A program made the position numbers and the translations under genes. The notes under the pieces were generated by a model. That model made no database searches, was not told the DNA's origin, and saw only the letters and a program-made list of their open reading frames with translations. From positions 5,067-69,066 of the forward strand of contig CALBTS010000588.1 in NCBI GenBank assembly GCA_937968035.1: a stretch of DNA of 64,000 bases. Direction: 5' to 3'. The stretch comes from an uncultured Methanomethylovorans sp. Lineage in GTDB: Archaea; Halobacteriota; Methanosarcinia; Methanosarcinales; Methanosarcinaceae. This document shows, piece by piece, positions 6,377-63,210 of the stretch. Numbering within the stretch: position 1 is the stretch's first letter; every line of letters starts with the position of its first letter.

Positions 6377-8416
6377 ATGAAACACACCTTCTACACACTA
6401 CTATTGTTATTTTTTTTGATAATGCCCGCCTGTGCAATAGTAACAATACCAGCAGGAAGCATTAATAACTACAACATGAATACTGCCAACGAAACATATG
6501 TACTTGCAGGAAATGTCGTAGCCGGAACCACCGCATTAACGGCGGGTGCAAACAATATCACTCTCGACGGGATGGGACACAACATAGCATTCGGTACGAC
6601 AGGTGCAGGATATGCGGTATACTCACAGGGAAAAAATGAAATCAGGTTAATGAATTTCACTGCACATGCAAATGCAACTTATTCCAACTGTTATGGACTA
6701 TACATATACAGCTGCACAGGTGCAAACATTACAAATGTTGACGTATCCACAAATGGATCATCGGCCATCTACCTAAGAAGTGCTACGGGTAACACTTTAT
6801 CGAACAGCACATTTACATCCACAACTGGGATAGCAAGCTACAACAACCTAGCAGCCAACAACGCATTCTACAACTGTGAAATAAGTACTGGTAGCAATTA
6901 TGCAGTATATGATCAGAGTTCTGACAAATCCGCATACGAACTATGTACTATTACATCGGAAACAAGTTCAGCTATTCAACTACCAGCCACTAGCACTAAT
7001 TTCACAATCGAGGGGTGCACTGTTCAATCATCAGCAACAAGTAAGCCAGCTATTAATATGCTAGACGCTTACATGGCAAACATCCTAAACAGCACTATCA
7101 TTACCAATTCCAACATAGGATTATATGTAACCAGAACAACAGCAGGTAGTATAGGTACAAGACTGTGTAACATCAAAAACAATACTATCATAGCAAGCGG
7201 TTCAAATCCAGCCCTCTACGTGTATGGTGGCAGGAACAACACTATCAGCGACAATATGTGTACAGGCAACACTGGAAACGGTGCATATTTCAGAGAAGCA
7301 CACAACAATACCATGAATGGTAACAATTATCATTCAGAAACGAACGACGGACTCCTTGTAGCATATAAAACATATAACAATGAATTCGACAATGAAACAT
7401 GCTCATCAAATGGTACAATGGGCATATTTGTCTACAACGCATCCGGCAACGATTTCTCAAATATGACCATAGTTGGTGATTATGCATCCGCACCGCACAC
7501 AGGAACTCATGTACTAATGGTGGGCGACTCAATAACAGAAGGAGGCCAGGGTGGAACACAATACAGCCAGTTGCAATCACTACTTGCAAACATGGTTAGT
7601 CCAAAGGGATGGAATGTAAGCAACCAGGGTTTCAGTGGAGAAAGGGCAAATTATGGGAGGGAACGATTTACCCAGGAACTGGACATATTTGAGCCCACAA
7701 TGGTTACCATCATGTACGGAACCAACGATCTGATTGACGACAGGCCACAACAGGATATAATAGATGACATCTTGTGGATGGCCAATACCTCAAAAAACAG
7801 AAACATAACACCTTATGTGATGCTGACTCCGTGCATATACACCAATAACACTAAGAGAATCTGGCTAGACCAAAATCTAAGCGCACAGGCAAAAGCCAAT
7901 GGATTCAGTGTAATAAACGTATACGATTCGGTAGACACGGTACCAAACAACACACTGTTCGATGGGTACAACAGCTCAAATTTTGCAGATGGCATACACC
8001 CCAACACTGCAGGAAACCAACTGATTGCCAATCGTATGTACCTTTACATTGCACCCAAATTGGACTGGGTGAACGATTGGAGGACCAGCAATGGATCCAG
8101 GAGGATTGACACAAAGTTCAGCACACTGGATGCAAGATCTAACACAACACTACCATACTATGTAGGTTTCATTCAAAATACTTCATCCATTGCACTTGAT
8201 TCGAACAACACAAATGCAAGTGTCTACTGGGATGACAATAACATCCTTATCAGCACAGGTGTCCTGAAAGAAGGCGATTATTTCTACTATAATGTAAGCA
8301 TGACCCAGGATCCAGACACATTCATTAACCCATGGTTATACCCCGGACTCTCACTAATAGGCACAACCGGAGTATTCGTAATAGTCAGCTTCATAAACAG
8401 ACGTAGAAGACAGTGA
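6377..8416 (+). CDS. Membrane-anchored beta-helix / SGNH (GDSL) esterase
   Basis: This 679-aa protein has a signal peptide (LLLLFFLIMPACA). A NosD-type right-handed beta-helix follows (about 25-370, with many NNTI/NST turns), then an SGNH hydrolase domain (about 375-560). A C-terminal membrane helix ends in RRRR. The SGNH blocks are intact: GDSIT (nucleophile Ser, about residue 380), the GTND block (about 452) and DGIHPN with the Asp/His pair (about 538). SGNH enzymes remove acetyl or acyl groups from polysaccharides, and the beta-helix suggests glycan binding. An enzyme that trims a host surface polysaccharide during attachment or release is the likely role, but the substrate is unknown. GAAGGTG precedes the ATG. 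Confidence 0.85.
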   Translation: MKHTFYTLLLLFFLIMPACAIVTIPAGSINNYNMNTANETYVLAGNVVAGTTALTAGANNITLDGMGHNIAFGTTGAGYAVYSQGKNEIRLMNFTAHANATYSNCYGLYIYSCTGANITNVDVSTNGSSAIYLRSATGNTLSNSTFTSTTGIASYNNLAANNAFYNCEISTGSNYAVYDQSSDKSAYELCTITSETSSAIQLPATSTNFTIEGCTVQSSATSKPAINMLDAYMANILNSTIITNSNIGLYVTRTTAGSIGTRLCNIKNNTIIASGSNPALYVYGGRNNTISDNMCTGNTGNGAYFREAHNNTMNGNNYHSETNDGLLVAYKTYNNEFDNETCSSNGTMGIFVYNASGNDFSNMTIVGDYASAPHTGTHVLMVGDSITEGGQGGTQYSQLQSLLANMVSPKGWNVSNQGFSGERANYGRERFTQELDIFEPTMVTIMYGTNDLIDDRPQQDIIDDILWMANTSKNRNITPYVMLTPCIYTNNTKRIWLDQNLSAQAKANGFSVINVYDSVDTVPNNTLFDGYNSSNFADGIHPNTAGNQLIANRMYLYIAPKLDWVNDWRTSNGSRRIDTKFSTLDARSNTTLPYYVGFIQNTSSIALDSNNTNASVYWDDNNILISTGVLKEGDYFYYNVSMTQDPDTFINPWLYPGLSLIGTTGVFVIVSFINRRRRQ

Positions 8417-11198: not shown

Positions 11199-11377
11199 CG
11201 AAGAACTTTTTATACTTCAAAGTATATTAGAAGGTGGATCTGGAAGTTGGAAGCTGCCAGAGATATACCCTTTTTGTGAATCAGTGTTCGGGATGTCTAC
11301 CAGACATCCTGTACACCACGCTACTAAAAAATTAGTCTACCGATTTTTTAATATACCACGCATTAGCAGAGCCTCTT
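11199..11377 (+). other. Non-coding gap with hairpins and portal promoter
   Basis: No gene is seen here. A T-rich stretch with an inverted repeat (TATACTTCAAAGTATA) starts the gap. A perfect 7-bp hairpin GGATGTC/GACATCC lies at 11291-11309 and a palindrome ACTAAAAAATTAGT at 11322-11335. A TATA-like TTTTTTAATATACC ends about 20 bp before the portal ATG. There is no ribosome site before that ATG, so the portal mRNA may be nearly leaderless. Confidence 0.45.
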
Positions 11378-31646: not shown

Positions 31647-31650
31647 AACA

Positions 31651-31682
31651 TGCAGCCAGCAAATGGCTGCAGCTCTTTTTTA
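31651..31682 (+). terminator. Strong terminator of the virion operon
   Basis: TGCAGCCA (31651-31658) pairs perfectly with TGGCTGCA (31664-31671), loop GCAAA, followed by a run of T. It lies 5 bp after the last virion gene. Confidence 0.75.
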
Positions 31683-31710
31683 ATAAAAATCTTCCACTAA
31701 TGAGACAACA

Positions 31711-31729
31711 CCATCGCATCCGCGGGGGG
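31711..31729 (+). repeat. Non-coding copy of the dispersed motif
   Basis: CCATCGCATCCGCGGGGGG matches the core of the dispersed 20-bp motif and is one of the few copies outside genes. It is flanked by GACAAC and TTGTC, giving a possible hairpin. Confidence 0.45.
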
Positions 31730-31745
31730 TTGTCCCTTAATGTAA

Positions 31746-31856
31746 ACACACACAATTTATTTAAATGATCATAACCTTAACCACTCGACGCAATATAAAT
31801 GTGCCTGGCAAAGCCAGATCACATTTATAAGCGTCTTCGTTAAAAATTGTGTGTGT
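31746..31856. other. Long nested palindrome (candidate origin, operator or RNA)
   Basis: A 13-bp perfect inverted repeat (ACACACACAATTT at 31746-31758, AAATTGTGTGTGT at 31844-31856) encloses a nested hairpin centred at about 31811. Its stems are TTAAC/GTTAA, GACGC (31787-31791)/GCGTC (31831-31835), ATAAATGTG (31795-31803)/CACATTTAT (31820-31828) and CTGGC/GCCAG with loop AAA. The right part also contains a TATA-like CATTTATAAG about 25 bp before the GTGTGTGTAT element. It separates the virion and replication modules. It may be a replication origin, a divergent promoter/operator or a leader RNA; the sequence alone does not decide. Confidence 0.6.
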
Positions 31857-31881
31857 ATTTTCTTCGTGAGCGTGATGTAGA

Positions 31882-31932
31882 ATGGACACTGAGGAACAGA
31901 TAGTATACCATATTTATGGGTGGGCAGCATGA
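31882..31932 (+). CDS. 16-aa leader peptide
   Basis: A 16-codon frame begins after GAGCGTGATGTAGA and ends with an ATGA overlap onto the next gene's ATG (31929). Probably a translational coupler. Confidence 0.35.
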   Translation: MDTEEQIVYHIYGWAA

Positions 31933-38970: not shown

Positions 38971-38972
38971 CA

Positions 38973-39058
38973 TGTCGATCCTCACAACTTTGTCCTTTTT
39001 GGCTACCGCCTACAAAGGACAAGTGTTCGGACGACAAAAATACAAATTGTTTTTTTTT
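38973..39058 (+). ncRNA. Structured terminator or leader RNA
   Basis: TTGTCCTTT (38990-38998) pairs perfectly with AAAGGACAA (39014-39022), enclosed by TGTCG (38973-38977)/CGACA (39032-39036). A T9 run follows at 39050-39058. It may terminate the upstream operon or form a regulated leader of the 39089 gene. A TATA-like AAAAATACAAA lies between the structure and the T run. Confidence 0.5.
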
Positions 39059-39088
39059 AGTTATCAATAAATCGTCGAGGAACAAATC

Positions 39089-39643
39089 ATGGCAGAATAT
39101 AAAATATTGTTAGGGGACACTATCAACAAATCAATAGTGTTCGCAGAAATAACAGTTGATGATAACAGCGACAAACACTTTTCAGTGTGTTTCAGTGAAG
39201 TAGAGCCATTCATAGCAACTTATGAATTTTTAAAAGAGCGTGCAGAAGGATATGTAGAAAGCATGGACGTAGACTCTTTAAAAAGAACACTGCAATGGCA
39301 TGACTGTAAAATAGATCAACTGGCAGATGAATTGGTTGCAGGCGACATTGAAGAATTAATAGACATAAGCCTTTATCCAAACTGGTTCACAATCGAGGGT
39401 ATAGAAGATTCCATATACTTCGAATCGGTCACCGTCGGACAACATGATACAAGAGATATACTTGTACCAATTGATAAAGAGTTCTCAGACTGGATCCATA
39501 CCATGTGGGACGCATACCACCTTCAAAAACTACCGGAATTGCTCAAAATCGGTACCAGACAAAAAATTGAGGAATATGTAGCCAAGATAGGGGACGAAGA
39601 AGAACTCATAAAAGAATGGCTGAGAAAGATCTACCAGGAATAA
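39089..39643 (+). CDS. Hypothetical acidic protein
   Basis: This acidic mixed alpha/beta protein of 184 aa has no recognised motif. It begins 30 bp after a T-rich stretch with a weak GAGGAAC ribosome site. First gene after the structured RNA. Confidence 0.55.
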   Translation: MAEYKILLGDTINKSIVFAEITVDDNSDKHFSVCFSEVEPFIATYEFLKERAEGYVESMDVDSLKRTLQWHDCKIDQLADELVAGDIEELIDISLYPNWFTIEGIEDSIYFESVTVGQHDTRDILVPIDKEFSDWIHTMWDAYHLQKLPELLKIGTRQKIEEYVAKIGDEEELIKEWLRKIYQE

Positions 39644-48192: not shown

Positions 48193-48194
48193 AA

Positions 48195-48254
48195 TCGCTC
48201 GGTAGCTCATAAATGCAGCGGCTATCGCCGACAGCAATTATGGCTACCTCTCTC
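48195..48254 (+). ncRNA. Leader RNA family L2, copy B
   Basis: Same structure as the RNA at 44245-44304: GGTAGC (48201-48206) pairs with GCTACC (48243-48248), and CATAA with TTATG, leading to the conserved inner hairpin. Across about 60 nt only a few positions differ and two of them restore a base pair. It lies 38 bp before the 48292 gene. Confidence 0.65.
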
Positions 48255-48291
48255 AGAAATTATGAGTACTTTTAGTTAAGAGGTGTCGAAG

Positions 48292-50988: not shown

Positions 50989-51291
50989 GTGATACTTCAC
51001 CAAACAATACTAAAATGGAACTACTTAGGAATTGATTGCGAACAATACATTGAAAAACTGTATATAAGTGATAAAAAATTCAAATTTTTTATCATAGCAC
51101 AAATAGAAGGTGCAGGATATTGGCACCCAATATCACTAACTAACAACCCAAATGCTTCACTTGAAAGACTACGCAAATGTGAAAACCAACAGTATTCTTT
51201 CCTTTGTGATCTACAAGCACTTCCGGTTGAAACGTGGTATAGGTACTACAACACTGTATCAATTGACAAAAATGAAGATGCTATAGAATAA
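50989..51291 (+). CDS. Hypothetical protein
   Basis: This 100-aa protein starts at GTG behind ACTGGGTGAAAAA. Mixed beta/alpha, with two isolated cysteines. Unknown. Confidence 0.5.
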   Translation: MILHQTILKWNYLGIDCEQYIEKLYISDKKFKFFIIAQIEGAGYWHPISLTNNPNASLERLRKCENQQYSFLCDLQALPVETWYRYYNTVSIDKNEDAIE

Positions 51292-55573: not shown

Positions 55574-55590
55574 GGGGATTTCCCCCCTTT
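55572..55590 (+). terminator. Terminator after the small-gene operon
   Basis: AAGGGG (55572-55577) pairs with CCCCTT, then TTT; it starts at the stop codon of the HTH gene. Confidence 0.6.
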
Positions 55591-55597
55591 TACACCG

Positions 55598-55665
55598 TCC
55601 CTGTTTAACCAATGCAATTGTTGCCGACAATCACATTGGCCGTGGTTCAAATCCACAAACAGGGA
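55598..55665 (+). ncRNA. D-armless tRNA-like structure
   Basis: A 9-bp acceptor-like stem (TCCCTGTTT/AAACAGGGA) and a T-arm (GTGG TTCAAAT CCAC) give 9+4 stacking. The rest is one long arm, CCAATG/CATTGG then ATTG/CAAT, with loop TTGCCGA that would place GCC in anticodon position. No D arm and no encoded CCA. It may be a tRNA mimic or a decayed tRNA-Gly. Confidence 0.5.
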
Positions 55666-55725
55666 AAGCGAAAACCCGCTTTGTAATCCCAACCTATATA
55701 CAACTGCCAAGTAGGAGATGATATC

Positions 55726-55857
55726 TAAAGTATATAAAAATAATTGACATGTAGTCACTTACTTTTCCTTTTAACTAACGCGAAAAACGATGCTCGGAAA
55801 TAAAGTGAAACAAAGCCCGCTTGATCTGATGGCGGGCTAAACTACACATGGAGGACC
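55726..55857 (+). promoter_or_regulatory. Promoter and hairpin leader of 55858 gene
   Basis: AGTATATAAAAAT (55729-55741) is a good TATA box. The leader then holds AGCCCGC/GCGGGCT (about 55817-55840) shortly before GGAGGACC and the ATG. Confidence 0.5.
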
Positions 55858-56103
55858 ATGGAAACAAAAGTAATAATCATGCGCGATGTTGATCGTGAAA
55901 GCCTGGCAAACCCAGGTAAAAACAAAGCAAAAGTATACCACGAAGGCCGAGAAGTAGGCGAAGTGGACAATATAGAAGTGTCAGATAATGCGATCATTGC
56001 AACACTGAACATCACCGACAACGAAACCATAGAATTAATCAGTGCAGGCAAAATCAACAAAGCAGATACAAAGGTACAAACATGTCCAATATACCTAAAA
56101 TGA
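55858..56103 (+). CDS. Hypothetical protein
   Basis: This 81-aa beta-rich protein (VIIMRDVDRESLANPGKNKA; VGEVDNIEVSDNAIIATLNI) is probably a small barrel. It sits alone between RNA elements. Unknown. Confidence 0.55.
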   Translation: METKVIIMRDVDRESLANPGKNKAKVYHEGREVGEVDNIEVSDNAIIATLNITDNETIELISAGKINKADTKVQTCPIYLK

Positions 56104-56126
56104 CTCATACATTGAGCCAAACACCT

Positions 56127-56211
56127 TGCCATCACTGGCGTTATAAGTACTGGTTCGATTCCAGTTCCCGTTGGCACGGTATAGGGTGAGTTCAAATCTC
56201 ACCGATGGCAA
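56127..56211 (+). tRNA. tRNA-Ser(CGA)-like, class II, divergent
   Basis: TGCCATC (56127-56133) pairs with GATGGCA (56204-56210), followed by A. The anticodon arm ACTGG TTCGATT CCAGT has a normal U33 and anticodon CGA. A variable arm CCGT/ACGG and T-arm GTGAG TTCAAAT CTCAC follow. The D arm is weak and the U8-purine9 linker is missing, so it may be degraded or a mimic. Confidence 0.5.
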
Positions 56212-56233
56212 TTCACCAGGCATCGCCGTTGGG

Positions 56234-56334
56234 CGCACAGTACAGAGTGCGGGACAGGAAATCTCAATAACACCTTCATGGGCCTGTCCGAAATAGAAAG
56301 GTGTCGTGAAAGCCGATAGATCACTAAAAAGGCT
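56234..56334 (+). ncRNA. Pseudoknot RNA between tRNA-like elements
   Basis: After a hairpin CGCAC/GTGCG (56234-56251) there is an H-type pseudoknot. GGACAGG (56252-56258) pairs with CCTGTCC (56283-56289), and ACACCTT (56270-56276), inside that loop, pairs with AAGGTGT (56298-56304). A further AGCC/GGCT closes downstream. No open frame covers it. Confidence 0.5.
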
Positions 56335-56358
56335 TGACAATTGGAGAGACAATACCGC

Positions 56359-56396
56359 CCAGGCCGGTATATAAAACATACAGGAGTATGGCCTGG
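56359..56396 (+). promoter_or_regulatory. Hairpin with TATA box before the tRNA
   Basis: CCAGGCC (56359-56365) and GGCCTGG (56390-56396) are a perfect 7-bp inverted repeat. The loop holds TATATAAAAC (56368-56377), a TATA box some 35-40 bp upstream of the tRNA. Confidence 0.45.
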
Positions 56397-56409
56397 ATCC
56401 CCTCAAATT

Positions 56410-56482
56410 GCCTCAGTAGTTCAGTGGTTAGAATATGCGGCCTGTAACCGTAGGGTCAGGGGTTCGAATCCCTTCTGAGGCT
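56410..56482 (+). tRNA. tRNA-Thr (UGU), with unusual C33
   Basis: A full cloverleaf is visible. Acceptor GCCTCAG/CTGAGGC, D stem GTTC/GAAT, anticodon stem TGCGG/CCGTA with loop CCTGTAA (anticodon TGT) and T-arm AGGGG TTCGAAT CCCTT. The discriminator is T, as in archaeal tRNA-Thr. Position 33 is C, not the near-universal U. No CCA is encoded. Confidence 0.75.
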
Positions 56483-56534
56483 TTGGGTACGGAGTACCCA
56501 TCTCGGATGAAAGTTGACAGCTGGAAAGACAGCA

Positions 56535-56619
56535 GGCAGTGTTGCCAACTGGGATGGATAGGAACGCAAGGTTCCGAGGAAAGCAATTTCCTGGGTGGGT
56601 TCAATTCCCACCACTGCCA
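56535..56619 (+). tRNA. tRNA-Leu(CAA)-like, class II, divergent
   Basis: GGCAGTG (56535-56541) pairs perfectly with CACTGCC (56612-56618), discriminator A. A short D arm (CCA/TGG with GGG in the loop) is followed by an anticodon arm GGAAC GCAAG GTTCC, or GGAA/TTCC with loop CGCAAGG giving CAA with G33. The long variable arm is AGGAAA/TTTCCT and the T-arm GTGGG TTCAATT CCCAC. The non-U33 makes its function as an elongator doubtful. Confidence 0.55.
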
Positions 56620-56622
56620 TTG

Positions 56623-56674
56623 GGTGCAGCAAAACTAAAAAATAAGCATGTGATTTTTACTCGATAGCTGCACC
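56623..56674. terminator. Hairpin with T-rich loop, likely terminator
   Basis: GGTGCAGC (56623-56630) pairs with GCTGCACC (56667-56674). It lies between the tRNA-like gene and the convergent minus-strand peptide and could end both transcripts. Confidence 0.4.
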
Positions 56675-56678
56675 TACT

Positions 56679-56786
56679 TTAAAACCACCACAGGGAATGG
56701 CGAATCATAAACAAAGCAATGACGATCCAAGCCCACCACGGCCAGTTATCTTCCTGGAACAAATCATCATCATTTCTATCTGACAT
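56679..56786 (-). CDS. 35-aa single-pass membrane peptide
   Basis: A minus-strand frame encodes an acidic N-terminus (SDRNDDDLFQEDN) and a Trp-rich membrane helix (WPWWAWIVIALFMIRHSLWWF, one residue over broken at F). A TATA-like CGTATAAATATG lies about 30 bp upstream of the ATG on that strand. Below normal gene-calling size. Confidence 0.5.
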   Translation of the reverse strand: MSDRNDDDLFQEDNWPWWAWIVIALFMIRHSLWWF

Positions 56787-56831
56787 AATTAGAACTATCT
56801 CTGTTCACATATTTATACGATGCTACAACGG

Positions 56832-56915
56832 CGCATGTCTGCAGCCCAACTTAAACCCAAGCCCGCTAAAGCGGATATCGCAGCGGCGATAGGTTTAAGA
56901 GGCTACCGACATGCG
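56832..56915 (+). ncRNA. 84-nt three-way-junction leader RNA (family L1), copy 1
   Basis: Stems: P1 CGCATGTC/GACATGCG; P2 GCAGCC/GGCTAC with one mismatch; P3 TTAAACC/GGTTTAA. Then a three-way junction with P4 (CCGC/GCGG, loop TAAA) and P5 TATCGC/GCGATA with loop AGCG. It ends 45 nt before the DUF4326 start, and AAAGGAG and a T-rich stretch follow. Probable cis-regulatory leader. Confidence 0.75.
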
Positions 56916-56959
56916 AAAGGAGAATTTTACTTTTAATTGGAAAATAAAGGAGAAGTATC

Positions 56960-57313
56960 ATGTGTCAAGTAGTTCACTGCAAAAAGTCAAAGCACGACGT
57001 ATACATAGGACGGCCAAGCAAATGGGGTAACCCATTCACAATTGGAGTGCATGGAAACAGAGAGGAAGTCATTGCAAAATATGAAGAGTATTTGCTACAC
57101 AATGATTACTTACTGGAATCATTGCATGAGCTGCACAATAAAGTATTAGGGTGCTGGTGCGCACCAGCTGCATGCCACGGCGATGTACTTGCAAAGTATG
57201 CAAAGCTGGTAGAAGGCAGAACAGATCTGAATGCACGGCAAATACGACTGATGATAAAATCAAATGAAGCTGAAAAAGCAGGACCATTATACAAACTAAG
57301 GAGACATGCATAA
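56960..57313 (+). CDS. DUF4326 protein
   Basis: This 117-aa protein has the DUF4326 pattern YIGRPSKWGNPFTIG near 20, a middle helix with YEEYLL, and LGCWCAPAACHGDVLAKYA near 63-85. The family's chemistry is not settled; it is found in phages and beside NAD/ADP-ribose genes. It is the first gene after leader RNA copy 1, with ribosome site AAAGGAGAAG, and overlaps the next gene by one base. Confidence 0.8.
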   Translation: MCQVVHCKKSKHDVYIGRPSKWGNPFTIGVHGNREEVIAKYEEYLLHNDYLLESLHELHNKVLGCWCAPAACHGDVLAKYAKLVEGRTDLNARQIRLMIKSNEAEKAGPLYKLRRHA

Positions 57314-57522
57314 TGGCAAAAGCGGTAGTAACAATAAATATCAAAACTGAACTGAGCGAAGACAGAGCACAGTATTTGGCAAATAGAATAATCAAACAAT
57401 TTCTGGCTACGCTCAAAGACAGTGGCACTGAGTTAGAGCTTACAGCAGAAGACCACGAATGGCTATCTGGGTACATAATACGCACATTCGAACGAGCTGG
57501 AATCGAACTGATCAAACGATAA
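57313..57522 (+). CDS. Small helical protein
   Basis: This 69-aa protein has one strand followed by two helices (VVTINIKTELSEDRAQYLAN). Co-translated with DUF4326. Unknown. Confidence 0.55.
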   Translation: MAKAVVTINIKTELSEDRAQYLANRIIKQFLATLKDSGTELELTAEDHEWLSGYIIRTFERAGIELIKR

Positions 57523-57528
57523 CGAGAA

Positions 57529-57612
57529 CGCATATCTGCAGCCCAACTTAAACCCAAGCCCGCTGAGGCGGGTATCGCGGCGGCGATAGGTTTAAGAGGC
57601 TGCCGACATGCG
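57529..57612 (+). ncRNA. 84-nt leader RNA (family L1), copy 2
   Basis: Same length and fold as copy 1. P2 is perfect (GCAGCC/GGCTGC), P4 is 5 bp (CCCGC/GCGGG, loop TGAG) and P1 has one A-C mismatch. GGATTTTTTTG follows, a possible archaeal terminator-type U run, then AGTACAGGAGAA before the macro-domain gene. Confidence 0.78.
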
Positions 57613-57656
57613 AAAAGGATTTTTTTGTATTTCTTGTGAAGTACAGGAGAATTACT

Positions 57657-58085
57657 ATGAAGGAAGCCAAAGGTTCAATGTGGAAAGCATCTGCTACTCA
57701 CTACTGTGTTACTACGAACGGTATCGTCAAATCTAACGGGGATCTTGTCATGGGTGCAGGCATCGCTCTGCAGGCAAAGAATAAACACCCACACGTGCCC
57801 CACTGGTTCGGCCAGCATGTCCTGCGCCGTGGCAACACCCCATGTGCTGTGCGTGTAGCCAAAGATCGTTACTATGTAAGTTTCCCAACCAAGCACGATT
57901 ATCGGGATCCATCTGACCTGGACCTGATCATTAAATCAGCCAAGCTCATCGCCGCACATGTGCCAAAAGATGCAAAGGTTTCGATGTCAAGGCCCGGCTG
58001 CGGTAACGGTGGACTTTCCTGGGATATAGTAAAACCCGCGATCTCCAGTATACTGGATGACAGGTTTACGGTATATTCCTTTTAA
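57657..58085 (+). CDS. Macro-domain (ADP-ribose-binding) protein
   Basis: This 142-aa protein is a compact macro domain. It has TTNGIVKSNGDLVMGAGIAL (ADP-ribose loop) at about 18-37, VSFPTKHDYRDPSDLDLIIK near 80 and SRPGCGNGGLSWDIVKPAIS near 110, then a terminal strand. The motif set is like phage and DarG-type macro domains that remove ADP-ribose from DNA or proteins. The start is set by CAGGAGA. It lies 45 nt after leader RNA copy 2 and 22 bp before NADAR, so an ADP-ribose-reversal role, perhaps against host DarT-like toxins, is a reasonable inference. Confidence 0.85.
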   Translation: MKEAKGSMWKASATHYCVTTNGIVKSNGDLVMGAGIALQAKNKHPHVPHWFGQHVLRRGNTPCAVRVAKDRYYVSFPTKHDYRDPSDLDLIIKSAKLIAAHVPKDAKVSMSRPGCGNGGLSWDIVKPAISSILDDRFTVYSF

Positions 58086-58107
58086 CTTTTTTATGGAGGA
58101 TTAAACC

Positions 58108-58560
58108 ATGCAAGTAATTGATGAATTCAGAGGAAAATACGATTTCCTATCGAATATGTACGAGATCCAACTGGTTATTGATGGAGAAACCTACAGGTCA
58201 GTGGAAAATTATTTCCAGGCCATGAAATCAGATTCTCCTGGTACCCGCCGATGTATCGCCGCAGCTAACCCCATATCATCTAAAATGATGGGCAGGCGGG
58301 TAAAACTCACGAAAGACTGGAATATTAAAAAGATAGGTGTAATGGAAAAAGCACTTACTGCGAAATTTAATGATCCACTAATGAGACAGAAACTCATCGC
58401 AACCGCAGGCATGAAACTGGTCGAAGGAAATACCTGGAACGATACATTCTGGGGAATGTACAACGGTAAAGGTATGAATGTCCTGGGATGCATGCTGATG
58501 AGAATCAGAGATAAGATAATCTCTGAACTTACCAACATTAAACCAACTATGGAGGAATAA
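58108..58560 (+). CDS. NADAR/YbiA-family N-glycosidase
   Basis: This 150-aa protein is NADAR (DUF1768). It has FRGKYDFLSNMYEIQLVIDG at the start, YRSVENYFQAMKS near 32-44, NDPLMRQKLIATAGMKLVEG near 92 and TWNDTFWGMYNGKGMNVLG near 113. NADAR proteins hydrolyse N-glycosidic bonds and some remove ADP-ribose from guanine in DNA or counter DarT. Encoded right after the macro domain with site TGGAGGA. A copy of the dispersed 20-bp motif lies inside (58393-58409). Confidence 0.85.
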   Translation: MQVIDEFRGKYDFLSNMYEIQLVIDGETYRSVENYFQAMKSDSPGTRRCIAAANPISSKMMGRRVKLTKDWNIKKIGVMEKALTAKFNDPLMRQKLIATAGMKLVEGNTWNDTFWGMYNGKGMNVLGCMLMRIRDKIISELTNIKPTMEE

Positions 58561-58562
58561 CA

Positions 58563-58940
58563 ATGTCAGTATATTCATTTAAAGACCTTATCCAACACTA
58601 TGGTCACCATATAGACATAGTGACCCACGGACCTGAAAACGAAAACCCAGCTGACGTGGCTATAGTCTGCCTAGACTGCCAAGAGATCTTACTCTGCTAC
58701 GACAATGTCGAAGAACTGCCAACCACATGTTCCATCGACAAAGACACTGCAGTTGAATTCGCATTGGCAGTTATTGATGAAATAGAAGGATTACTCGAAG
58801 ACAAAGGTATAGTCATTCCAAATAATGAAAAATCAGATAATCCCGATGCCGCAAACGTATACGGTAGCGACTATTACAGTTTGGAAGACTCGATACTAGA
58901 ACTCATGGGATACATACTAAAAATTAAAATAGAAGAATAA
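58563..58940 (+). CDS. Hypothetical acidic protein with CxxC
   Basis: This 125-aa protein has CLDCQEILLCY near 36-46, otherwise acidic alpha/beta. Two bp after NADAR. Unknown, perhaps part of the same pathway. Confidence 0.55.
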   Translation: MSVYSFKDLIQHYGHHIDIVTHGPENENPADVAIVCLDCQEILLCYDNVEELPTTCSIDKDTAVEFALAVIDEIEGLLEDKGIVIPNNEKSDNPDAANVYGSDYYSLEDSILELMGYILKIKIEE

Positions 58941-58964
58941 AACCAGTACAGGAGCGTGTGTGAT

Positions 58965-59882
58965 TTGAACGAACAAACAGAACGCCGAGTCGAAGACTTG
59001 ACTCAGAAAGTCCTGGACATGCTTGTGAAACAAGACCCAGGAGAAGTGATAACGAAAACATATTTCCAGAAATTCAAATCGGATAAACCTCTCAACACCT
59101 GGAGCTTCGGCAATCAGATGATGTGCCTGGCAGCATACCTAACAGAACATCCGGAAGAAAGTGTGATGGAAGCCATCGAAAAAATAGATTACCGTGGTTT
59201 CAAACAGTGGCTAACCGCGAACAGATGCGTGAAGAAAGGAGAGCATGCTCATGCCTTTATCTTCAATCCACTGATTGCCAAATCTACTGACAAGAAAACA
59301 GGAGAGGAAAAGAAGTTCCTCAAAGGTTTCAAAACAACACCAGTGTTTGAAGTAAGCCAAACAGACGGCGAAGATCTACCAACGGCTTCCCAGGATCCAC
59401 GGATAGAAGTTGTCAGAAAATTCAACTTCATCACAGTTGCTGACAAACTGGGAATAACAGTCAGAGCTGGAACAACCAGCCAGGGTGAATATGGATACTA
59501 TAGCTCATGCAACCGTGTGATCCAAATATGTACTCCGGAGGAAATGACATTCTATCACGAACTCAGTCATGCAGTGGATGATCACCTGCTCAAACAGAAA
59601 GGCGGTAAGGGCCTGAAAGGAGGCCAGCAGGTAGACCAGGAGATCATTGCACAGTTCTGCAGCAACGTCCTTGCATATATAACCGGTAAAGAAGTGCATA
59701 GGACAACAGCCTACACAAAGCAATATATCATTTCATATCTGAAATCCGATAATATTGCAATGGCTGTCCTGGAACTCATGTCACGAATCAACAACATCAT
59801 CGACTACATCGTTACCAACAGCGAATATTCGGACCTCACAAAACAACCTGTAGACGTACCCCATGCATGCAGCCCAACTTGA
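58965..59882 (+). CDS. ArdC-like protein: ssDNA-binding plus zinc metallopeptidase
   Basis: This protein of about 305 aa starts at TTG behind GGAGCGTGTGTGA; an in-frame GTG at 58956 is possible. The N-terminal domain (1-150) follows the ArdC pattern: WSFGNQMMCLAAYL, GFKQWLTANRCVKKGEHAHA and FIFNPL. The C-terminal domain has the zinc motif HELSH (near 197) with surrounding TFYHELSHAVDDH. ArdC proteins counter restriction and protect incoming single-stranded DNA. The last codons overlap leader RNA copy 3. Confidence 0.8.
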   Translation: MNEQTERRVEDLTQKVLDMLVKQDPGEVITKTYFQKFKSDKPLNTWSFGNQMMCLAAYLTEHPEESVMEAIEKIDYRGFKQWLTANRCVKKGEHAHAFIFNPLIAKSTDKKTGEEKKFLKGFKTTPVFEVSQTDGEDLPTASQDPRIEVVRKFNFITVADKLGITVRAGTTSQGEYGYYSSCNRVIQICTPEEMTFYHELSHAVDDHLLKQKGGKGLKGGQQVDQEIIAQFCSNVLAYITGKEVHRTTAYTKQYIISYLKSDNIAMAVLELMSRINNIIDYIVTNSEYSDLTKQPVDVPHACSPT

Positions 59883-59943
59883 ACCCAAGCCCGCTGAGGC
59901 GGGTATCGCAGCGGCGATAGGTTCAAGAGACTGCCTGCATGGG
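59860..59943 (+). ncRNA. 84-nt leader RNA (family L1), copy 3
   Basis: Aligns without gaps to copies 1 and 2. P1 is CCCATGCA/TGCATGGG, with three pairs changed on both sides relative to copy 1. P3 is TTGAACC/GGTTCAA, one more compensatory pair. Its first 23 nt are the end of the ArdC-like gene. Followed by GGGGATTTTTG and GTACAGGAGAAG before the SLOG gene. Confidence 0.8.
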
Positions 59944-59988
59944 AAAGGGGATTTTTGTATTTCTTAGTAAGTACAGGAGAAGTTACAA

Positions 59989-60462
59989 ATGTCTGAATAC
60001 AGAGTAATGATCACTGGCAACCGGCCACACAAGCTGGCAGGCGCACCGATGGACGAAATAAAGGCACGCATGGAGAGGCACATTCTCAATCTCAAAAATA
60101 CCCATGGCAATGACCTTGTCATTCTCACTGGGATGGCACAGGGTCCGGACCAGTGGGCTGCAATCATCTGCACAAAGCATGGCATCAAGTTCGATGCATA
60201 TCTCCCATTCATGGGCCAGGAATGCAGGTGGAGCATCATCGAGCAGGGCAATTACCGCAATTTGCTCACACATGCTCACCAGATCTTCATCGCTTCATCA
60301 TGTCCATCAAAGATGGCGTTCCTTCGCAGGAACGATTACATGGTCGCTGATTGCATGGAAGCCATCGCAGTATTCAATGGCGATTATGCATCTGGGACCG
60401 GATACACTGTTCGCAGGATCAAAGCAGCTGACAAGCCGTATACCAATGTCTACGGCATTTAA
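59989..60462 (+). CDS. SLOG-superfamily (YspA/DUF1273-like) protein
   Basis: This 157-aa protein has a Rossmann-like SLOG pattern: MITGNRPHKLAG near 7, then LVILTGMAQGPDQWAAIICT near 38, FDAYLPFMGQECRW near 62 and FLRRNDYMVADCMEAIAVFN near 105, then GYTVRRIKAAD. SLOG domains bind or cleave nucleotides such as NAD or ADP-ribose derivatives and act as sensors in conflict systems. The third copy of leader RNA L1 lies 45 nt upstream. Codon use is richer in GC than the early module. Confidence 0.8.
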   Translation: MSEYRVMITGNRPHKLAGAPMDEIKARMERHILNLKNTHGNDLVILTGMAQGPDQWAAIICTKHGIKFDAYLPFMGQECRWSIIEQGNYRNLLTHAHQIFIASSCPSKMAFLRRNDYMVADCMEAIAVFNGDYASGTGYTVRRIKAADKPYTNVYGI

Positions 60463-60481
60463 TTTTCCGGAGCTGATACAA

Positions 60482-60619
60482 ATGCCAAAAAGAAACGGAA
60501 AATACTACTGTGCTCAGTGCGGAAAAGAACTGGACCCATATAGTCCATGGGACCTGAAAGACGACTACTACAGAGAACTATTCTGGAAATATGGCACCTG
60601 CCAGCAATGCAACGACTGA
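60482..60619 (+). CDS. Small zinc-ribbon protein (45 aa)
   Basis: A 45-aa frame with CAQCGK and CQQC forms a ribbon; GGAGCTGAT precedes the ATG. A longer overlapping frame in this phase has no support. Confidence 0.6.
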   Translation: MPKRNGKYYCAQCGKELDPYSPWDLKDDYYRELFWKYGTCQQCND

Positions 60620-60660
60620 CTTAAATACAATCGAGTCGTATCAGCAGGAAGCGTGTGTGT

Positions 60661-60852
60661 ATGAAGATATTAATTGAAACTTTATCACGGCCTACTCCAG
60701 AAGAGGTCTCGAAACGAATAGCAGCGATGCATGAACTGCACAAGCTGAACCCGTACTATACAACACGAGATTTCAGAATGGTGCTGGGAGAAACGGATAA
60801 GCTGATTGAAAAATACTTCAAACTGCTACGCAACGGAGAGCTGACGCTATGA
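60661..60852 (+). CDS. Hypothetical small protein
   Basis: This helical 63-aa protein starts 1 bp after GCGTGTGTG (60651-60659), which follows a TATA-like CTTAAATAC by about 25-30 bp. ATGA overlap with the next gene. Unknown. Confidence 0.55.
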   Translation: MKILIETLSRPTPEEVSKRIAAMHELHKLNPYYTTRDFRMVLGETDKLIEKYFKLLRNGELTL

Positions 60853-61028
60853 AGACAAACACTACTCACTACTTGGACAACACCAACGGAACCGTGTGGG
60901 AATGTCTTGCTTATAGGCTTGGATCTCGGTTCAAGTGGACACGCACGGAAACCAATGTTGTCGGACAGATTACCTTTCACGGTATTGCAGCTACGCTACT
61001 AGGTGCAATCTTCGAAAGTGAACTGTAA
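60849..61028 (+). CDS. Hypothetical small protein (59 aa)
   Basis: A 59-aa frame overlaps the previous stop (ATGA). WECLAYRLGSRFKWTRTETN in the middle; no known motif. Just below common length cut-offs. Confidence 0.5.
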   Translation: MKTNTTHYLDNTNGTVWECLAYRLGSRFKWTRTETNVVGQITFHGIAATLLGAIFESEL

Positions 61029-61036
61029 AACGACGG

Positions 61037-61125
61037 TGCAGGTTGTTCTTCTCACTTGAATCTTCCGGCACCCTGCGGGCTTCGGGCTTCGCCTGCCGTA
61101 AGAATCAAGGATCAGAAAACCTGCA
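61037..61125 (+). ncRNA. Structured RNA before the RPA operon
   Basis: TGCAGGTT (61037-61044) pairs with AACCTGCA (61118-61125). Inside, CTTGAATCTT pairs with AAGAATCAAG with one mismatch, then CGGCA/TGCCG and a GC-rich terminal part with GCGGGC/GCCTGC. About 88 nt and very stable compared with the surrounding DNA. Class unknown; different from L1 and L2. Confidence 0.6.
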
Positions 61126-61185
61126 AAAAGGAGTTAATTGTATTCTTTAAGAGTACAAATATAAAATTGTAAAGAGGAATGAACT

Positions 61186-61617
61186 ATGTCCTTCAAAGAA
61201 CTACCAACTGAACTACAGGACCTATATGCACAGATGTCAGACAAACAACAAAGCAAAGTACTCGATGTAGTGCTTGAACAGGAAATACCAATGGAAGCTG
61301 CTATAAGGCAAATAGCAGACGAGATCGAAGCCGAGAAGAAAGCTGAGAAGACCGGTAAACCTGTAAACGAGTCTACCCAGAAACCTGCAAACGGTGTCAA
61401 ACTTGACGCAGGGTGGGTTGTCACAGAAGAAATCCACATCGACAGAGAATACTTTGCTCAGATGGTGGCAGACTTCCTATCGGTCCACGGTCAAATGGAC
61501 GATTCAACCAAACTGATCCTTTCAAGATACGTCTCTTCCTCAAAGGGTCATGGATTCCAAACCGATTACTACGGTAAGAACATCCATTACCGCAAGGTAA
61601 AGAGGGTTGAACAGTAA
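61186..61617 (+). CDS. Hypothetical protein upstream of RPA
   Basis: In this 143-aa protein, the N-terminal 70 residues are helical with a charged linker (EAEKKAEKTGKPVNESTQK). The C-terminal part is alpha/beta. TATA-like AAATATAAAAT (61157-61167) precedes it and GAGGAA is the ribosome site. Possibly a single-strand-DNA partner, inferred only from position. Confidence 0.55.
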   Translation: MSFKELPTELQDLYAQMSDKQQSKVLDVVLEQEIPMEAAIRQIADEIEAEKKAEKTGKPVNESTQKPANGVKLDAGWVVTEEIHIDREYFAQMVADFLSVHGQMDDSTKLILSRYVSSSKGHGFQTDYYGKNIHYRKVKRVEQ

Positions 61618-61643
61618 CGACGATGATCAAAACTAAATCCATA

Positions 61644-61668
61644 GCCAGTGGCATCCTCCTCCACTGGC
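61644..61668 (+). promoter_or_regulatory. Hairpin leader before the RPA gene
   Basis: GCCAGTGG (61644-61651) pairs perfectly with CCACTGGC (61661-61668); it lies between two genes of the operon, 30 bp before the RPA ATG, and may modulate expression. Confidence 0.5.
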
Positions 61669-61698
61669 ACTTCTCCAATTTATAAAAGGTGATTAGAA

Positions 61699-62646
61699 AT
61701 GTCTCAAACAAAAGCAGAAATGATTGCAGAGATTATGAACATGTTCCAGAACCAGGGTATCGAACTGGACACAAAAGCAGTTGAAGACAGACTTGATAAA
61801 CTGACCTTAAAGTTCAAGGTGCCTGCAGACGAAGCAAAGAGAACGGTAATCAACTACTTCATCAAAGAAAATGGAATGAAGCAGGGCCAGTTCTACGCAT
61901 CAACTCAGGACCCTAAGATCCAGAAGATATCAGATGTAACCGAAGACGGCAAGTGGTACAACTTGAAAGCAAAGGTTGCACAGCTCTGGGATAACAACCA
62001 TGAATCTATTTCACAGGTTGGCCTGCTTGGTGACGAAACAGGAACTATCAAATTCATGTCCTGGACTTCTGCAAACGCTCCTGAGATGGAAGAAGGCAAA
62101 GTGTACCTCTTCAAGTCTGTGGTGTCAAAGCAGTGGAACGGTAAGATGGAATTGAACTTCAACAAGAAGACAACCGTTGAACTGTTACCAGACGAAGACA
62201 TCGAAGTAGGCTCAACTATAGTAGAGCTTACGGGTGCAGTGGTTGATATCCAGCAGGGTTCTGGACTTATCAAGCGTTGCCCAACATGCAACCGTGCAAT
62301 GTCCAAAGGCTCATGCTCTGAACACGGAAGAGTCGAAGGCAAGTACGACCTACGCTTGAAACTTGTCGTAGACAATGGCAAGGTTGCCCAGGACGTACTA
62401 CTGAGCCGTGAACTAACAGAAGAAATCACCGGTATCAAACTCGACACTGCTATCGCAATGGCAGCGGATGCGTTGGACCAGGGAGTAGTACTTGAAGAAA
62501 TGAAGAAAATGCTCACTGGCAGATACTACGAGGTCAAGGGTTCCTGCGTGGACAGGTACCTGTTGGCTGACAGTATCGAAAAACAGTTTAGTGTAGATGT
62601 TGAAAAGATTGCTGAACTTATTGCAGAAACAAAAGAGGTGGCTTAA
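61699..62646 (+). CDS. rpa: Replication protein A (OB-fold, zinc finger)
   Basis: This 315-aa protein has a helical N-terminus (1-70), then an OB fold (about 85-165, ISDVTEDGKWYNLKAKVAQLW ... GLLGDETGTIKFMSW, abridged). A second OB fold contains a zinc finger (CPTCNRAMSKGSCSEHG, about 195-215), and a helical C-terminus follows, as in euryarchaeal RPA. It coats single-stranded DNA during replication. Ribosome site AAAAGGTG. Forms an operon with the partner protein downstream. Confidence 0.85.
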   Translation: MSQTKAEMIAEIMNMFQNQGIELDTKAVEDRLDKLTLKFKVPADEAKRTVINYFIKENGMKQGQFYASTQDPKIQKISDVTEDGKWYNLKAKVAQLWDNNHESISQVGLLGDETGTIKFMSWTSANAPEMEEGKVYLFKSVVSKQWNGKMELNFNKKTTVELLPDEDIEVGSTIVELTGAVVDIQQGSGLIKRCPTCNRAMSKGSCSEHGRVEGKYDLRLKLVVDNGKVAQDVLLSRELTEEITGIKLDTAIAMAADALDQGVVLEEMKKMLTGRYYEVKGSCVDRYLLADSIEKQFSVDVEKIAELIAETKEVA

Positions 62647-63210
62647 ATGGTAGGAAATTACACACGTAGTATCGCTAAGAGAGTATTCGCACATGAGCTG
62701 GGAGAAACCTCCCTCTCATTCAAAGACGGTGACGACCAGTATTCACCTACCTATGCAATCACTCCAACCGGTGAGAAGGTCAACAGAATATTCATGGTAG
62801 CAACTCTCCTGGAGGCCGAGGACATCGGCAAGGACTCTGAATACTGGAGAGGACGCATTGCTGACCCAACTGGTACAATGCATGTATATGCTGGACAGTA
62901 CCAGCCAGCTGCAGCACAGTTCCTGGTAGAAGCAGAAGTACCGGCCTTTGTAGCTATCATAGGCAAGCCGAGCACATACCAGACTCCGGAAGGGCACACC
63001 AAGTCATCTATCCGCCCAGAAGCGATCTTTGAGGTAGATGCTGAAACACAGAACAAGTGGATAATGGAAACTGCAGCTGCTACCATCGAGAGGTTAAAAA
63101 CCCTCAACGCAGACGACGAGGTGAAGGCAAAAGCCAGAGAACACTACAAAGTGGACATCGGTGCATACAACACCATGGTACGCATTGCACTGAAATCAAT
63201 CGAGATTTAA
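62647..63210 (+). CDS. RPA-associated OB-fold protein (COG3390 type)
   Basis: This 187-aa protein starts directly after the RPA stop. It has RSIAKRVFAHELGETSLSFK then VNRIFMVATLLEAEDIGKDS, and ends with RLKTLNADDEVKAKAREHYK, the layout of the euryarchaeal RPA partner family. The start reuses GAGGTGGCTTAA as ribosome site. Together the pair forms the single-strand-binding complex. Confidence 0.8.
   Translation: MVGNYTRSIAKRVFAHELGETSLSFKDGDDQYSPTYAITPTGEKVNRIFMVATLLEAEDIGKDSEYWRGRIADPTGTMHVYAGQYQPAAAQFLVEAEVPAFVAIIGKPSTYQTPEGHTKSSIRPEAIFEVDAETQNKWIMETAAATIERLKTLNADDEVKAKAREHYKVDIGAYNTMVRIALKSIEI

Follow-up and report, generated by a model that had tools for sequence, protein, structure and literature searches.

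Three copies of an 84-nt folded element were found on the + strand of a 64,000-nt stretch of DNA from an uncultured Methanomethylovorans sp. (contig CALBTS010000588.1, positions 5,067 to 69,066; this whole stretch is referred to as the window), each at a short distance upstream of a start codon, and a fourth, diverged copy was located further downstream. Repetition, spacing and covariation support a selected secondary structure in these copies, as had been proposed in a first-pass annotation made from the sequence alone. The element is probably a cis-acting leader module on the + strand that acts on translation in mRNAs of a head-tailed virus of archaea. The copies, designated c1 to c4, have the following positions:

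56832..56915, + strand: leader copy c1 (P1-P5), 84 nt, at the head of the gene block
57529..57612, + strand: leader copy c2, 84 nt, starting 6 nt past the stop codon of orf69
59860..59943, + strand: leader copy c3, 84 nt, holding four compensated changes
61037..61125, + strand: diverged leader c4, 89 nt, with an 8-bp P1 and 7 of 8 P3 pairs, ending 60 nt before an ATG

The coordinates, the gap-free alignment over 84 nt and the folds of c1 to c3 given in the first-pass annotation were reproduced; c1 has a shorter P2 and P4 and a centroid structure without P4 and P5. The full P1-P5 structure is the minimum-energy fold of c2 and, nearly, of c3. The folding z-scores were -5.8 (c1), -5.1 (c2) and -6.3 (c3), and none of 200 dinucleotide shuffles per copy folded as well. 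When c1 to c3 were placed on the P1-P5 structure, 96% of the cells were paired and four pairs were changed on both sides, exactly the four changes named in the first-pass annotation (here columns 2-83, 7-78, 8-77 and 22-65); this covariation, drawn with c4 from three to four sequences of one genome, fits pairing on either strand. Sliding the partners by one to three columns lowered pairing to 27-40% and left no two-sided change. Under a substitution null, in which the same number of bases was changed at random, at least four compensated pairs arose in 0 of 300,000 trials for c2-c3 and in 12 of 300,000 for c1-c3. All four two-sided changes set c3 apart from c1 and c2, which differ from each other in six columns, none of them part of a compensated pair. 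P1 differs in c3, with an identity of 9-10/16 to the others as compared with 15/16 between c1 and c2, and the core columns 9-76 are nearly constant among c1 to c3 (61-64 of 68 identical). The 60 nt upstream of the three copies are unrelated (13-20 of 60 bases identical).

The distance from the end of the copy to the ATG, annotated as about 45 nt, was measured as 44 nt (c1), 44 nt (c2) and 45 nt (c3). The copies thus show the feature expected of a riboswitch or structured leader, a folded domain at a fixed place upstream of start codons and always on the same strand (44-45 nt for c1 to c3, 60 nt for c4). Stability by itself is unremarkable in this region, where other segments and gaps fold strongly: a coarse scan of 50-64 kb in 100-nt segments with 20 shuffles each gave z-scores of -6.8 for 51041-51140, -4.4 for c2 and -3.9 for c3, and a survey of gaps gave 0.0 for the gap of c3, which is clipped by the end of an ArdC-like open reading frame (ORF) whose TGA stop codon forms positions 21-23 of c3. 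The distinguishing marks of the element are its repetition and the compensated change.

The fourth copy was recovered end to end by R3, a covariance model of c1 to c3 with their tails that comprises P1, P2, P3 and a tail hairpin and was built without c4 (E 0.0052 in 64 kb, the E-values of these short-calibrated models being rough); the further extra matches of R3 in the window were the reverse strands of c1 to c3. In c4 the spacing equals that of the other copies, with 18 nt from the 5' end to P3 and 16 nt from P3 to the 3' end. P1 is fully paired (8/8), P2 is mostly lost (2/6 pairs), and the apical domain differs and is 5 nt longer. Among 63,900 + strand positions, 61037 was the only one at which this geometry came with 8/8 P1 and at least 7/8 P3 pairs. 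The fold had a z-score of -4.5, which 1 of 200 shuffles equalled. Aligned locally, c2 and c4 reached a score of 37, which was matched by 0 of 1000 shuffles and 0 of 1500 segments of the window; for c3-c4 the alignment was equalled in 3 of 1000 shuffles and 0 of 1500 segments, and for c1-c4 in 25 of 1000 and 13 of 1500. With all four copies together, 94% of the cells were paired and seven pairs were changed on both sides, namely five of the eight P1 pairs and two of the eight P3 pairs; slid partners gave no two-sided change at one or two columns and at most one at three. These counts lean towards the structure, which was chosen after c4 had been seen, and the R3 match is the cleaner test. The element is described here as a structured leader module in which one chassis is shared and the apical part takes two or more forms.

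Each copy is followed by a tail that leads to the start codon:

56916..56959, + strand: c1 tail with a purine tract, a T-rich tract and the ribosome site AAAGGAGAAG
57618..57653, + strand: c2 tail hairpin P6, 16 pairs, T-rich strand with the ribosome site AGGAG
59944..59988, + strand: c3 tail with a T-rich tract and AAGTACAGGAGAAG, hairpin over the ribosome site
61138..61158, + strand: c4 tail hairpin TTGTATTCT/AGAGTACAA, upstream of the ribosome site

The annotated succession of a T-rich tract and a ribosome site is clearly shared by c2 and c3, and by c4 as well, but c1 is more diverged. A tail pattern recurs at c2, c3 and c4, its only other match having three mismatches. The P6 hairpin of c2 has a folding energy of -15.6 kcal/mol and was not equalled in stability by any of 1000 shuffles; its ribosome-site region is 99% paired, the joint highest value among 83 gene starts that were set automatically and do not include the one of SLOG. 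The hairpin of the c4 tail was equalled by 5 of 1000 shuffles over its own short stretch, and the longer stretch to the ATG gave a z-score of -1.4 (15 of 200). The purine tract after P1 pairs weakly with the T-rich tract (-1.2 to -1.5 kcal/mol), too weakly for an anti-anti-Shine-Dalgarno switch to be claimed.

The mechanism proposed here builds on the copies, the pairing, the covariation, the spacing and the c2 hairpin. Each copy would consist of a compact folded domain P1-P5, with a variable P1 and a core that is near-constant in c1 to c3, and of a tail whose T-rich strand could pair with the ribosome site, so that domain and tail would jointly set translation of the gene downstream. The folded domain may act alone or with a protein or ligand as the signal. 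In the macro mRNA, where the 16-bp hairpin would hold the ribosome site, the hairpin would need to be opened or circumvented, either by something bound to the upstream domain or through an alteration of that domain. Copying would have spread the module within the accessory block (DUF4326, macro, SLOG) and brought it, with an altered apical domain, to the orf143-RPA block. A riboswitch is possible, with a putative ligand and a presumed switching step.

Several results weigh against the leader reading, and the strand of the folded molecule is the first of them. In the 84-nt fold each of the four non-standard cells is A.C on the + strand and hence G.U on the - strand, and the folding energy of the - strand is lower in four of four copies. 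It is therefore conceivable that the folded molecule is the other strand, a small RNA or single-stranded DNA hairpin encoded four times and antisense to the leaders, for which the conserved tail would be the promoter side; this we regard as fairly unlikely. All four single-sided changes stay paired only on the - strand, 97% of its cells pair, and the sole broken pair corresponds to the invariant G30.U45 of the + strand, so that every other pair of c1 to c3 is intact. Moreover, the - strand P4 hairpin of c1 and c2 scores as terminator-like (nine sites in total versus 5.4 +/- 2.4 in shuffles). On the other hand, four A.C cells out of four have a chance of 1/16 without any strand bias, A.C pairs are tolerable in RNA, and the + strand alone allows G30.U45 and the five G.U pairs in the tail hairpin of c2. 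An origin on the - strand would also leave the fixed ATG distance of c1 to c3 and the shared ribosome-site stretch unexplained. This spacing, the ribosome-site stretch and the G.U pairs of the c2 tail favour a putative + strand RNA.

The remaining adverse results concern tails, promoters and models. The c1 tail hairpin does not exceed chance (equalled in stability by 194 of 1000 shuffles), the c3 ribosome-site hairpin is non-significant (85 of 1000), and the c4 tail hairpin does not cover the ribosome site; because of this, translation control by ribosome-site masking is well grounded for macro alone, being weak or absent elsewhere. The tail pattern fails to match c1, and of the four tails that of c1 is the most dissimilar (the c1-c4 alignment was equalled by 25 of 1000 shuffles). 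R1, the 84-nt model, gave no match to c4 at E-values up to 10. Among nine kinds of TATA-like words tested, none was found within 70 nt upstream of c2, c3 and c4; c1 has one at -20, of a kind present in 13% of random windows, and the usual archaeal spacing would put the transcript start from this word inside P1. The searches, which covered loci, virus records and archaeal genomes but not metagenomes, showed no credible recurrence before homologous genes.

Part of the evidence would also suit a structured terminator, processing or mRNA-stabilising element that punctuates the spaces between cistrons and senses no signal, its T tract terminating transcription or marking a cleavage site. Such a role, which we consider unlikely, would agree with the start of c2 and c4 at 6 and 8 nt past an upstream stop codon, with the overlap of c3 with another one and with the runs T7 after c2 and T5 after c3, but c4 has no T run, c1 has T4 stretches only, and the nearest clear + strand gene before c1 is a tRNA-Leu ending at 56619. 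In 56000-61700 all nine terminator-like sites lie on the - strand and none on the +, and near-constant core loops with a shared tail would be more than a terminator requires. That the copies are a spreading repeat without regulatory role, such as a mobile element or recombination site, appears very improbable: three near-identical copies within 3.1 kb and the overlap of c3 with an ORF end would be expected of it, but no further copy occurs in the window, where another model, R2, otherwise matched the reverse strands of c1 to c3 and one site at E 0.84. The constant orientation, the near-constant ATG spacing of c1 to c3 and the two-sided changes in place of decay speak against it as well. A mobile-element match, the observation named in the first-pass annotation as adverse to an RNA regulon, was likewise not seen, there being no credible DNA match in phages or plasmids and no stretch in IMG/VR for either of two exact patterns (0 and 0).

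The + strand leader module stands before genes whose annotated identities held, DUF4326, NADAR and YspA/SLOG by Pfam; for macro, the matches were to DarG models (one of NCBIfam, under its curated cut-off, and PADLOC) and to solved macro domains:

56960..57313, + strand: DUF4326 gene (PF14216, E 1.2e-27), behind c1
57657..58085, + strand: macro domain gene, DarG-like, behind c2
58108..58560, + strand: NADAR gene (PF08719), 22 nt behind macro
58956..59882, + strand: ArdC-like ORF (Pfam ArdcN just under the cut-off; PHROG anti-restriction protein)
59989..60462, + strand: YspA/SLOG family gene (PF06908, E 2.1e-9), behind c3
61186..61617, + strand: orf143, the gene behind c4
61699..62646, + strand: replication factor A (RPA; NF005553, above the cut-off), followed by orf187

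The block of macro, NADAR, SLOG and DUF4326 genes is of a known kind. Neighbourhoods and fusions of these four are described in DNA viruses, and the phage versions have been proposed to counter small ADP-ribose signals (PMC9503650, as far as the consulted portion of the article goes); the four co-occur here as in the viral NAD+/ADP-ribose gene sets defined there. According to the part of PMC11481870 consulted, either a NADAR or a macro domain is employed by DarG antitoxins, and a phage protein binds and blocks DarT. DUF4326 and/or NADAR also lie near macro in four of the fetched loci (L004, L012, L033 and L048). The first-pass annotation had placed the genes in one regulon of nicotinamide adenine dinucleotide (NAD) and ADP-ribose functions wired by the RNA. 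Partly against this, c4 precedes orf143 and the host-like RPA gene pair, which have no known link to these functions, and NADAR has no copy of its own. Both points make it less likely that one NAD-derived ligand is the only signal. A new class of modular sensing leaders, in which a chassis of 8-bp P1, P3 base and tail would carry exchangeable apical domains and switch on ADP-ribose counter-defence (c1 to c3) and replication genes (c4) upon two infection signals, possibly NAD-derived, is decidedly unlikely. If the leader reading is true, a virus that infects methane-cycling archaea would harbour a candidate family of cis-regulatory RNA, linked to genes predicted to disarm ADP-ribose-based immunity, and the element would offer a handle on the timing of counter-defence and perhaps on the sensed signal. 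Upstream of c1, a - strand ORF of 35 codons with one likely membrane helix (56679-56786) is divergent from it, and a TATTTATA stretch lies between the two (56810-56817).

Folding z-scores of the regions upstream of the genes were -4.2 for DUF4326, -6.9 for macro, -5.0 for SLOG, -2.7 for orf143 (c4; 140 nt only) and +1.0 for NADAR. Among 98 upstream regions of related genes in the fetched loci, a set that leaves out genes lying on the other strand of the locus, lacking a usable start codon or preceded by fewer than 140 nt, z was below -3 in six and below -4 in two; such leaders are unusual among related genes. Two repeats at related macro genes were rejected, one being a duplicated macro gene start (L085) and the other lying in tRNA genes (L064).

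A search of Rfam 15 with all 4227 families returned only a tRNA in the window at the gathering threshold and nothing overlapping c1 to c3 at E up to 10; near c4 there were three sub-threshold matches (E 0.1-3). A literature search of partial coverage found no report of such an RNA element, and in the portion of PMC9503650 consulted none is named and the word 'riboswitch' occurs 0 times. The element may thus be a new viral control RNA. Megablast of 14 kb against phages gave no match, and blastn of 4.2 kb returned three records, whose matching stretches fall within the macro and NADAR genes and the bases that directly follow. With c2 and its tail, three plasmid records (27 nt, E 0.3) and three phage records (21 nt of the tail, E 0.4) were obtained, none credible.

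Homologues near other NAD or ADP-ribose genes, which a covariance-model search had been expected to yield, did not emerge credibly from the sets searched. R1 gave no match in 90 loci, in five genomes, in 237 genomes of the class of a Methanoperedenaceae metagenome-assembled genome (MAG), in 49 whole virus records, or in seven further records (six genomes with a portal relative, out of 236 searched, and one virus record); 35 other virus records gave one match at E 0.79. In 156 genomes of the phylum of genome G002, R1 had one match of 60 bases (E 0.012 for one genome), judged to be chance, at which R2 scored only 9.9 bits in a stretch of 81% GC. R2 gave two matches each in 100 and 16 loci (E 0.36 to 1.7), none credible, and two A/T-rich matches in 392 genomes (E 0.05 and 0.08), judged to be chance; the first has tail-like letters but lies within an ORF. 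R3 gave one match of 54 bases in 40 genomes (E 0.03), also judged to be chance. The genome sets overlap. Because the model searches had no positive control outside the window and strict filters were used above 40 genomes, the absence of relatives is weak evidence. Either the element is of recent origin or evolves fast, or it is restricted to viruses scarcely held in accessible collections.

The window probably spans the greater part of a virus contig. It encodes a phage portal protein (PF06381, 11378-12778), Orc1/Cdc6 and RPA, which both exceed the NCBIfam cut-offs, and PCNA, a primase and a recombination directionality factor-like protein. The first-ranked portal match in the phage collection was the archaeal virus ANMV-1 (29.8% identity), and the portal profile found one distant relative in IMG/VR (26%). 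In 10 fetched genome loci (L091-L100) a chromosomal pair resembles RPA and orf187 of the window in the same order with approximately 52-58% identity; these genomes came from the search of the class of the Methanoperedenaceae MAG, which we take to be Methanosarcinia. Owing to the ANMV-1 portal match and these counterparts in archaeal genomes, the host is likely a methanogen or methanotroph archaeon. The RPA and orf187 pair (61699-63210) was likely acquired from the host. Proteins of the window are also present on a public contig of 79,698 bases, and a protein 99% identical to the SLOG protein (59989-60462) is known from a public contig of 1,734 bases, so that this virus, or one closely related to it, has been sampled in another place or a second time. 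A possible tail fibre at 6377-8416 joins a right-handed beta-helix to a GDSL lipase/acylhydrolase domain.

Further structured sites were observed in the window. The gap 38971-39088 (z -3.7) has a hairpin domain followed by T9, a tract that could pair with GAGGAACAA at the ribosome site of the ORF at 39089; the layout is similar to that of the leaders, but R2 gave no match there. Very strong folding (z -5.8) was seen in the long intergenic gap 31647-31919, where arms of the type ACACACACAATTT/AAATTGTGTGTGT flank an inner hairpin. Other structured gaps are 48193-48282 (z -3.7), 11199-11377 (z -3.2) and 55574-55857 (z -2.5); in the third of these, CATGTAGT/ACTACACATG immediately precedes the ribosome site that serves the ORF at 55858. 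The most extreme segments of the coarse + strand scan, 51041-51140 and 55881-55980 (z -5.1), both lie within ORFs. A tRNA-like stretch at 56124-56212, which has the ends TTGCCATC/GATGGCAA and holds two GTTC segments resembling a T-loop, adjoins tRNA-Thr and tRNA-Leu; it was called neither by ARAGORN nor by Rfam at gathering.

Compared with known systems, the leader module resembles translational riboswitches and protein-binding mRNA leaders in its folded domain, variable closing stem, conserved core and c2 ribosome-site hairpin and in the placement of one module before several genes; it differs in that no Rfam family matches, masking is not general and the element was observed in a single genome. 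NAD+-I and NAD+-II riboswitches are the known NAD-sensing classes and would share the metabolic theme, but no Rfam match was obtained at the copies and c4 stands before orf143-RPA. With the viral NAD+/ADP-ribose counter-defence sets (PMC9503650) the gene grouping is the same, and the RNA element is, as far as the consulted portion of that article goes, named only here.

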